Positions 1,179 to 4,184 of a DNA stretch of 28,617 bases are shown in pieces. Source of the stretch: a virus; the IMG/VR virus record IMGVR_UViG_3300029319_000354, positions 1 to 28,617 of that record. One strand, 5' to 3'. The notes beneath the pieces are model-generated. The model did not search any database. It was not told the origin of the DNA and was given only the letters and a program-made list of their open reading frames with translations. Position numbers and translations under genes: made by a program. Within the stretch, counting starts at the first letter, position 1, and every line of letters begins with the position of its first letter.

Positions 1179-1235
1179 TGTTCCTTTATCTTGGTAAACA
1201 CTCTCCATACACATGTATTACGAAGGTACTTCTCC
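1179..1235 (+). repeat. Structured repeat family, degenerate copy A
   Basis: This is a partial copy of the repeat found at 1288-1422 and 1451-1573. It keeps a remnant of the pairing arms (TGTTCC at 1179-1184, TTGG..AACA at 1191-1200). It also has the conserved tail from 1207 (ATACACATGTATTACGAAGG), close to the tail at 1546-1573. The left part, including the conserved loop motif, is missing or unrecognisable. Confidence 0.5.
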
Positions 1236-1287
1236 GTATGTGGCACGTAGAGTTAAAGTTTTTTCAAGTTGGGTCAAAACACGGTAA

Positions 1288-1422
1288 TTCGGTACAAAAC
1301 CTCGAAGATGCCTTTGTACAGGGGCTTTCCGTTGTACCGATGTTGTACCGATTTGTATCAACATTCGGTACACTCATGTTTATACTATATTTTGGTATAC
1401 ATATATCACAAGAATACCCCTC
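1288..1422 (+). repeat. Structured repeat family, copy B
   Basis: Arms TCGGTACAA (1289-1297) and TTGTACCGA (1332-1340) form a 9-bp stem. A second TTGTACCG follows at 1343-1350, and another TCGGTAC arm at 1365-1371 could pair with it instead, so two folds exclude each other. The first loop carries CGAAGATGCCTTTGTA (1303-1318), identical in copy C. The copy ends in a tail ACATATATCACAA shared with copy C. Compared with copy C, both variable arm positions have changed together with their partners. Confidence 0.75.
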
Positions 1423-1450
1423 AAGTAAGTTGCCTAACCGGATAGACAAC

Positions 1451-1573
1451 TTGGAACAAAACCCCGAAGATGCCTTTGTATAGAGGCTTTCTGCTGTTCC
1501 AACCTGTATAGAAACTTGGAACACCTGTGTTTACACCATATTCTGATACACATATATCACAAAGGCACTCTCC
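1451..1573 (+). repeat. Structured repeat family, copy C
   Basis: Arms TTGGAACA (1451-1458) and TGTTCCAA (1495-1502) form an 8-bp stem, and a third arm TTGGAACA (1516-1523) can compete for the same partner. The loop motif CGAAGATGCCTTTGTA (1465-1480) and the tail ending near 1573 match copy B. The arms differ from copy B at two positions, with compensating changes in every arm. No coding function is apparent. Confidence 0.75.
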
Positions 1574-1981: not shown

Positions 1982-2637
1982 TGGCTATTAAATATGATGA
2001 AGGTATACCATTCCCTGAAGATTTAAGACCCGATGCAGATTTTGTTGGAGCAAAACTAGATGCTCTAGATAGAGCTAAGATAGCATGTAACACGGCAGTT
2101 GCTCTACAAAATATGGGTGTAGACATACAACCCACCGAAGAAGATAAAGAAAATGCTAGGGAAACTTTTCAAGAAGTCGTGCAAGAAGAAAAGCCGTCTA
2201 AACGAAAAGTTAAGCAAGATACCGTAAAGACTAATGGATCGGCTCTCCATTTAGCTGCACTGTTAGACGAGTACGATAAGGAAGTTGTCCAGGAGAAAGC
2301 TCAACTACGAGTATACGTGGTTAATAAACTTCTTGAGGAGTCTGTATCCACAAAAGATAGTAATAGAATGAGGGCTTTAGAGTTACTGGGTAAGGCTGCT
2401 GATTTATTTACAGACAAGACAGAAGTTACAGTTACCCATCAAAGTACAGAAGAATTAGAGAAAAAAATACGTCAGCGTCTAGATAACATACTAGAAGGAG
2501 AATGGGTTAGTGATGTTGAGGATGTTAAAGAAGTTAAAGTACCCGACTTAAAAGATAAAAAATTAGAATTAGACGAAGAAGTCAAGAATTGGAATGAGAT
2601 GCAGAAAGGATTATTGTTGTCAAAGGACATAGAATGA
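1981..2637 (+). CDS. terS: Putative small terminase subunit
   Basis: This 218-residue acidic protein sits directly before the large terminase, the usual place for the small subunit that recognises the packaging site and regulates cutting. It has a disordered charged N-terminal half, a helical middle (about residues 90-170, LHLAALLDEYDKEVV... then a RMRALELLGKAADLF segment) and an acidic, charged C-terminus. A Walker motif is absent, as expected. The start is the ATG at 1981 overlapping the previous stop; a longer frame from 1951 would add residues overlapping DUF3310. The sequence identity is weak, so the call rests on order, size and the LLGKAADLF-type helix seen in phage small terminases. 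Confidence 0.65.
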   Translation: MAIKYDEGIPFPEDLRPDADFVGAKLDALDRAKIACNTAVALQNMGVDIQPTEEDKENARETFQEVVQEEKPSKRKVKQDTVKTNGSALHLAALLDEYDKEVVQEKAQLRVYVVNKLLEESVSTKDSNRMRALELLGKAADLFTDKTEVTVTHQSTEELEKKIRQRLDNILEGEWVSDVEDVKEVKVPDLKDKKLELDEEVKNWNEMQKGLLLSKDIE

Positions 2638-4184
2638 CACAAAGACAGGGACAAAACATGGAAATGTATAAAGCTATGAAAGATAATCTAGCTTCCATGT
2701 TGCCCAACATGTCTTTGTACCAGAAAGCAGAAATGCTGGAAGAGCTGGATAGGGTTCGTAATCGTTACGAATTAACTACAGCTCAAAATAAGTTTTTAAA
2801 GTTTGTAAAGACAATGTGGCCTGAGTTTATCGAAGGCTACCATCACACAAAAATGGCAGAAGCCTTTGAGAAAGTTGCAGAAGGTAAGGCTAAAAGACTT
2901 ATTATCAATATGCCCCCTAGACATACTAAGTCGGAGTTTGCGTCTTACCTTCTCCCCGCATGGTTTTTAGGACGATTTCCTAATAAAAAAATTATACAAA
3001 CCTCCCATACTGCAGAATTAGCCGTGGGTTTTGGTCGTAAAGTTAGAAACTTGGTAGGTAGTGACGAGTATAAACGGGTTTTTCCTACGGTACATCTACA
3101 ATCTGACTCTAAAGCAGCGGGTCGATGGAACACAAATGTAGGTGGTGACTACTTCGCTATTGGTGTAGGTGGTGCTGTAACAGGTAAAGGTGCTGATTTG
3201 TTGATAATTGATGACCCACACTCTGAACAAGAAGCGGTCATTGCGGAAACAAGTCCCGAAGTCTACGATAAAGTTTACGATTGGTATACATCTGGCCCAA
3301 GACAGCGTTTACAACCAGGCGGTTCTATTATAGTTGTAATGACAAGGTGGTCAAAACGGGATTTAACGGGTCAAGTTATCAAAGCAAGTGCTCAATATGG
3401 GGGAGATGAGTGGGAAGTTATCGAGTTTCCTGCACTTTTACCCTCTGGAGCTCCTATTTGGCCTCAGTTCTGGGCAAAAGATGAGTTAGAAAACTTAAAA
3501 ACACAGTTACCTATCTCTAAATGGCAAGCCCAATACCAACAAACGCCTACTTCTGAAGAAGGAGCACTAATAAAACGTGAATGGTGGCGTGTTTGGGAGA
3601 AAGATAACCCTCCTCCGTGTGAATTTATTATTCAGTCGTGGGATACAGCGTTTTTAAAGACAAATAGATCGGATTATTCCGCTTGTACGACATGGGGTGT
3701 GTTTCATCACGAAGATGAAGACACTGGAACCACTGTTCCTAATATTATTTTACTAGATGCGTACAAAAAACGTATGGAGTTCCCAGAATTAAAGGTAAAA
3801 GCACAGGAATATTACGCAGATTGGGAGCCTGATGCTCTAATTGTCGAGGCAAAAGCTAGTGGAGCCCCGTTAGTGTTTGAATTACGGGCTATGGGTATAC
3901 CTGTATCGGAATTTACCCCCAGTAGGGGTAATGATAAGATAGCTAGAGTAAATGCAGTTACAGACTTATTTGCATCTGGGGCAGTTTGGACTCCAGATAC
4001 ACGATGGGCTCAGGAAGTTATAGAAGAAGCAGCTTCTTTTCCTGCAGGAGAACACGATGACTATGTAGATAGTATGACCCAAGCGTTATTACGATATCGA
4101 CAAGGTGGATTTATTAAATTACATAGTGATGAACAAGATGAGGATGCTGGATGGTTACGGCATAAACGAGCAAGTTATTATTAA
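2634..4184 (+). CDS. terL: Large terminase subunit (ATPase and nuclease)
   Basis: This 516-residue protein is the packaging motor that pumps DNA through the portal and cuts it. The ATPase domain (about 50-270) shows a variant Walker A PPRHTKSE (94-101), Walker B LLIIDDPH (189-196) and the coupling motif VVMTRW (234-239). The RNase H-like nuclease domain (about 330-490) shows the acidic residues in QSWDTAF (D337), IVEAKASG (E405) and HDDYVDS (D476, D479). Length and motif spacing are normal and no lesion is seen. The ATG overlaps the terS stop (ATGA), with AAGGA upstream. The nearest relatives are terminases of marine podoviruses and P22-like phages, from memory. Confidence 0.96.
   Translation: MTQRQGQNMEMYKAMKDNLASMLPNMSLYQKAEMLEELDRVRNRYELTTAQNKFLKFVKTMWPEFIEGYHHTKMAEAFEKVAEGKAKRLIINMPPRHTKSEFASYLLPAWFLGRFPNKKIIQTSHTAELAVGFGRKVRNLVGSDEYKRVFPTVHLQSDSKAAGRWNTNVGGDYFAIGVGGAVTGKGADLLIIDDPHSEQEAVIAETSPEVYDKVYDWYTSGPRQRLQPGGSIIVVMTRWSKRDLTGQVIKASAQYGGDEWEVIEFPALLPSGAPIWPQFWAKDELENLKTQLPISKWQAQYQQTPTSEEGALIKREWWRVWEKDNPPPCEFIIQSWDTAFLKTNRSDYSACTTWGVFHHEDEDTGTTVPNIILLDAYKKRMEFPELKVKAQEYYADWEPDALIVEAKASGAPLVFELRAMGIPVSEFTPSRGNDKIARVNAVTDLFASGAVWTPDTRWAQEVIEEAASFPAGEHDDYVDSMTQALLRYRQGGFIKLHSDEQDEDAGWLRHKRASYY

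Follow-up and report, generated by a model that had tools for sequence, protein, structure and literature searches.

In the window, which is the whole 28,617-base virus record analysed here, we detected two tandem repeat units, B and C, that we read as paralogous copies of one non-coding element of about 116 nt in a marine tailed phage. On the reading that we favour, tentatively and with somewhat less than even confidence, B and C constitute a hairpin-forming regulatory element that would act as a transcribed structured RNA and modulate transcription of the control region, a mechanism that we infer. Should it prove functional, the element would define a regulatory hairpin family not described before, from one lineage of marine phages. 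Probably it is a new example, of narrow distribution, of a broad kind, the phage intergenic hairpin element.

Setting and layout of the repeat units

The repeats lie in an intergenic region of about 0.9 kb between a leftward gene (114-806) and a rightward arm in which a DUF3310 gene (1721-1981) is followed by a small-terminase candidate (1981-2637, assigned by position only), the large terminase subunit TerL (2634-4184) and the portal gene. A first-pass annotation had placed the repeats directly before the terminase operon; they do precede the terminase genes, but the adjoining gene is that for DUF3310. By TerL, the closest named phages are 023Pt_psg01 and the Pelagibacter phages HTVC027P and HTVC023P (53-60% identity), and phages of the HTVC023P type are marine podoviruses (PMC9599517). 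A TerL search of bacterial genomes returned a single MAG contig (66%), and BLASTN against named phages yielded short matches only, covering at most 9% of the query, the best of which (E 1e-3, Microviridae) falls in a flank outside the repeats. The relatives that we compared are L002 and L003, both with a TerL 93% identical to that of the window, and L004, L006 and L007 (83-85%). In the 77,758-base contig of L004, the sign of the GC skew flips at about 15 kb, near the slot that corresponds to the repeats, and the genes of the other arm include a family A DNA polymerase; on both grounds, the slot is close to the place from which leftward and rightward gene arms run apart.

Units B and C are 116-127 nt long and align in two ungapped blocks of 83% and 73% identity. 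On the + strand, B consists of arm 1 (TCGGTACA, 1289-1296), the 16-base loop motif CGAAGATGCCTTTGTA (1303-1318), arm 2 (TGTACCGA, 1333-1340), arm 3 (TCGGTACA, 1365-1372) and a tail (1373-1412). On the same strand, C consists of arm 1 (TTGGAACA, 1451-1458), the identical loop motif (1465-1480), arm 2 (TGTTCCAA, 1495-1502), arm 3 (TTGGAACA, 1516-1523) and a tail (1524-1563), and a small hairpin, GTTGCCTAACCGGATAGACAAC (1429-1450), separates the two units. The order arm, complement, arm that the first-pass annotation gave for each full copy holds, with exact pairs, in both B and C, but B of the window has a fourth arm, a duplicate of arm 2 at 1344-1351 (+) that belongs to an 11-bp tandem duplication (GTTGTACCGAT GTTGTACCGAT); in B of L002, this stretch is present once. 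We also confirm that the same two of the eight arm positions differ between B and C in every arm, leaving complementarity exact. When the 911-bp intergenic region was shuffled 500 times with its dinucleotides preserved, no triple of 8-mer, complement and 8-mer at similar spacings arose. The loop motif had further been ascribed to a degenerate copy A; B and C share it, but A (1207-1230, +) is a tail remnant, 83% identical to the C tail, that lacks the motif and retains at most remnants of arms. In copy C of L002, the 16-mer begins with T, and the part that is invariant over the four copies amounts to 15 bases (GAAGATGCCTTTGTA). A coding role was considered and rejected: the spacing from B to C is 162 and 151 bases in the two genomes, which puts the copies in different relative frames, and the open reading frames match no PHROG.

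Pairing, strand and possible modes of action

If the units are transcribed, arm 1 would pair with arm 2 and close a hairpin tipped by an inner stem-loop (GAAG..GCCUUU GUAY AGRGGC UUUC), which the loop motif forms with the bases downstream of it (in B, GAAG/UUUC and GCCUUU/AGGGGC). Arm 3 could capture arm 2 in place of arm 1, and the element might thereby modulate transcription of the region through pausing, attenuation or antitermination. Read as the + strand, the four copies of the two genomes have only standard pairs at the 18 paired positions of the arm 1-arm 2 helix plus inner stem, where two changes are double-sided and one is an A/G wobble change, and the pairs of the arm 2-arm 3 alternative are likewise standard in all four. 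Read as the - strand, the structure loses one or two of its inner pairs. The arm 1-arm 2 fold is more stable than that of most shuffles, with z of -1.8 to -4.2 on the + strand and -1.0 to -2.7 on the - strand, and shuffle and slide controls favour structure, with little weight given that the alignment has only four related rows. The hairpin at 1429-1450 shows the reverse of B and C, with better pairing on the - strand, so that the predicted strand preferences conflict, the units favouring + and this hairpin -. In L006, the hairpin reads GTCGCCTAACCGGATAGACGAC, its GTTG/CAAC arms being replaced by GTCG/CGAC, a single compensatory pair.

The first-pass annotation saw in the three arms two mutually exclusive hairpins, as in a switch. 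Such competition is possible in three copies, but in B of the window the second copy of arm 2 allows the two hairpins to exist together, and the full-length fold of this unit pairs arm 2 with arm 3 rather than arm 1 because the duplication lengthens that helix. The element resembles leader attenuators in that arm 2 may pair with either arm 1 or arm 3. In contrast to these attenuators, neither arm hairpin is followed by a T run of the kind expected of an intrinsic terminator, neither a leader peptide nor a ligand domain was recognised, and the two hairpins can coexist where arm 2 is doubled. A terminator scan of the units flagged the inner hairpin only, followed by TTTCCGTTGT or TTTCTGCTGT. Promoter-like matches are near chance (7 in the window against 3.7 expected, 3 in L002 against 3.2 expected). 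One promoter-like site, at 1701-1730, recurs in L002. A start there would leave the repeats outside the DUF3310 transcript, on its upstream side, and weaken a leader role; because such sites occur by chance, it is only a hint.

The arms could also act on duplex DNA, as half-sites (TYGGWACA) recognised by a dimeric regulator of the phage between divergent promoters, an explanation that we regard as credible but rather unlikely. Seven of the nine half-sites in the window fall within the repeat region, the slot is near the divergence of the gene arms and possibly upstream of a rightward promoter, and arms 2 and 3 form an 8-13-8 dyad in every copy, save for the additional arm 2 in B of the window. 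However, one protein should prefer one sequence, yet a unit changes in all three of its arms at once, the B and C arms differing at two of eight positions while jointly fitting TYGGWACA. Furthermore, the inner stem-loop is conserved although it lies outside the arms, and the distance of 44 bases from arm 1 to arm 2 would make an unusual operator geometry.

Conservation and the origin of the arm differences

The same two units, in the same order and with the same arms, are present in L002, and the repeats are therefore not an assembly artefact. Between the window and L002, the arms and most of the inner stem-loop are conserved: none of the 48 arm bases differs, compared to 29 of the 184 other unit bases (Fisher p = 0.001). 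Since a change in one arm of a unit is matched in the other two, 16 independent sites make a fairer count, for which the probability of zero change is about 0.06 if the arms evolve like the rest of the unit and 1.4e-4 if they evolve like fourfold sites; to a degree that depends on this reference rate, the lack of arm divergence argues for selection. Whole units diverge at 12.5% of sites as opposed to 43% of the fourfold codon sites in two neighbouring genes, and accordingly look constrained, with the qualification that recent recombination of this block alone between the lineages would also lower divergence. Conservation of this kind is a better argument than the compensation between the arms.

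That compensation had initially been taken as direct evidence for selection on base pairing, a conclusion that we do not uphold. It reflects a single ancient split between B and C, which has come down to both phages. Multi-base compensatory changes can arise in one event when the template is switched between inverted arms (PMC8794818), and such switching could have produced the arm change in few steps and without selection. Caution is warranted in general, as one ancient change, counted over three arms and two genomes, mimics abundant covariation. All varying arm columns split B from C, whereas four tail columns split the two genomes, which indicates that the tails have been partly homogenised within each genome and the arms have not. 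If functional, the units would present a tidy natural case of tandem copies with arms that stay distinct alongside homogenised tail positions.

These observations bear on the possibility, credible though unlikely in our judgement, that the units are palindromic repeats of little or no function, in which template switching keeps the arms complementary and recombination keeps the tails alike. Multi-base compensatory change between inverted arms is the expected product of template switching at quasi-palindromes (PMC8794818), and the tandem duplication of an arm in B of the window, the gain and loss of units at homologous tails and the concerted tail changes all fit such a history. Copying of this type, however, keeps arms alike but should not halt change between phages, and here the arms are unchanged between phages that differ at 43% of fourfold sites. 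The probabilities of zero change over 16 sites and the far stronger conservation of the units than of fourfold sites point in the same direction, the latter subject to the same possibility of block-only recombination.

Distribution and related systems

The full B/C pair was found in two contigs only, the window and L002, and no B/C repeats are present at the same place in L003, L004, L006 or L007. The slot is bounded by a conserved block on the left (984-1031) and by a block on the right, AGAAAACCCCCCCGTCACTTATTTTTTACC (1641-1670), that is nearly identical in the window, L002 and these four relatives. The right block shows deeper conservation than the repeats and is itself a candidate promoter or terminase site. 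The length between the blocks is 7 nt in L004, 46-47 nt in L006 and L007, 244 nt in L003 and, by reading of the sequences, about 450 nt in L002 and about 620 nt in the window. In L003, a single tail continues into sequence like the flank of the C tail of the window, a junction of the form that deletion or insertion at the tails would be expected to leave. The element is accessory and lineage-restricted. The first-pass annotation had reasoned that drifting arms or missing repeats in relatives would suggest chance remnants of a duplication; of the relatives compared, L002 keeps both units with unchanged arms and the other four lack them. It had also proposed late-gene control, and as an essential late switch this is argued against by the lack of repeats in those four phages, including L003 with its close TerL.

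Other hairpins, some of them terminator-like, occur within the slots of L003, L006, L007 and the window. In the window, the hairpin at 1077-1096 is terminator-like on both strands, and in the three relatives, by eye, hairpins followed by T runs on the - strand resemble leftward intrinsic terminators.

An exact scan of IMG/VR for the 16-mer returned 33 stretches, a count near chance expectation outside L108, which is the same contig as L002 and the only one in which the motif is accompanied by arms. A relaxed pattern for the inner hairpin matched L108 alone. The arm 2-arm 3 pattern matched L108 at two places and, besides it, only contig L143, where the covariance model R1 found no unit; as a decoy, the same pattern with the spacing off by one base gave 8 matches. 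Run over 94 loci and 29 records, R1 detected no additional full unit, and a 20-bit match in the contig of L004 was rejected because the arms are absent on reading. None of the Rfam 15 covariance models matched the window at the gathering score, and the sub-threshold matches within 850-1760 are weak and all fall outside B and C. No paper on structured RNA upstream of terminase came up in a literature search.

For the reading as a transcribed RNA, then, speak the pairing on the + strand, the conservation of arms and units, the compensatory pair in the neighbouring hairpin of L006 and the absence of a coding signal. Against it stand the restriction to two contigs, the single ancient event behind the covariation, the coexisting hairpins in B of the window, the - strand preference at 1429-1450, the downstream position of the promoter-like site at 1701-1730 and the close relatives without the element. 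A bolder form of the same reading, which we consider quite improbable, would assign the repeats to a new class of RNA elements in phages, built of tandem units that share a loop and pair through three arms specific to each locus. Competition between their hairpins would control transcription between the divergent gene arms, and the pairing arms would be kept different between copies so that neighbouring units avoid cross-pairing.

It is very doubtful that the units are a pair of independent small RNA genes, each yielding one RNA that acts in trans on host or phage targets. The accessory distribution would suit such genes, as would the presence of tandem copies that share a loop but differ in their arms, and a weak promoter-like site lies inside B (1358-1386), but no convincing promoter or terminator of their own was found and promoter-like matches are near chance. 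A packaging site (pac or cos) of the terminase, another of the initial proposals and one suggested by the position before the terminase genes, is extremely improbable, given that the repeats are missing from the corresponding locus of phages whose TerL is 83-93% identical and that the right conserved block would be a better candidate.

The favoured reading of B and C as a transcribed regulatory element recalls putL and putR of phage HK022, a pair of related hairpin RNAs from the control region that separates divergent operons of that phage and which act by antitermination through host RNA polymerase; action by RNA only would suit the present element, which has no gene of its own. The put RNAs are about 70 nt long, with two stem-loops, and each operon has a single one, downstream of its early promoter (PMC9378689), whereas the putatively transcribed units described here are of 116-127 nt, stand in tandem and have three or four arms.

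Several further repeats were observed in other contigs. A second intergenic region of the leftward arm in L002 (825-1119) contains an AT-rich (TA)n stretch enclosed by a 22-nt perfect inverted repeat, AATGTTAGGTTGTAACATTATT, whose arms are at 828-849 and 1098-1119, an arrangement that looks origin-like. Likewise origin-like is a cluster of TGTTCC/GGAACA dyads in L018 (2378-2844), arranged mirror-wise with a shared GTGTAAT motif around an AT-rich stretch; the GGAACA core of these dyads coincides with part of the C arms of the window, as a match of letters. Finally, L002 carries three copies of a 29-nt repeat containing CCCCTCCACAGAACTGGT (1166-1309), downstream of the leftward gene, and positions 24-49 of the window are an exact 26-base match to L002 that covers most of this repeat unit.
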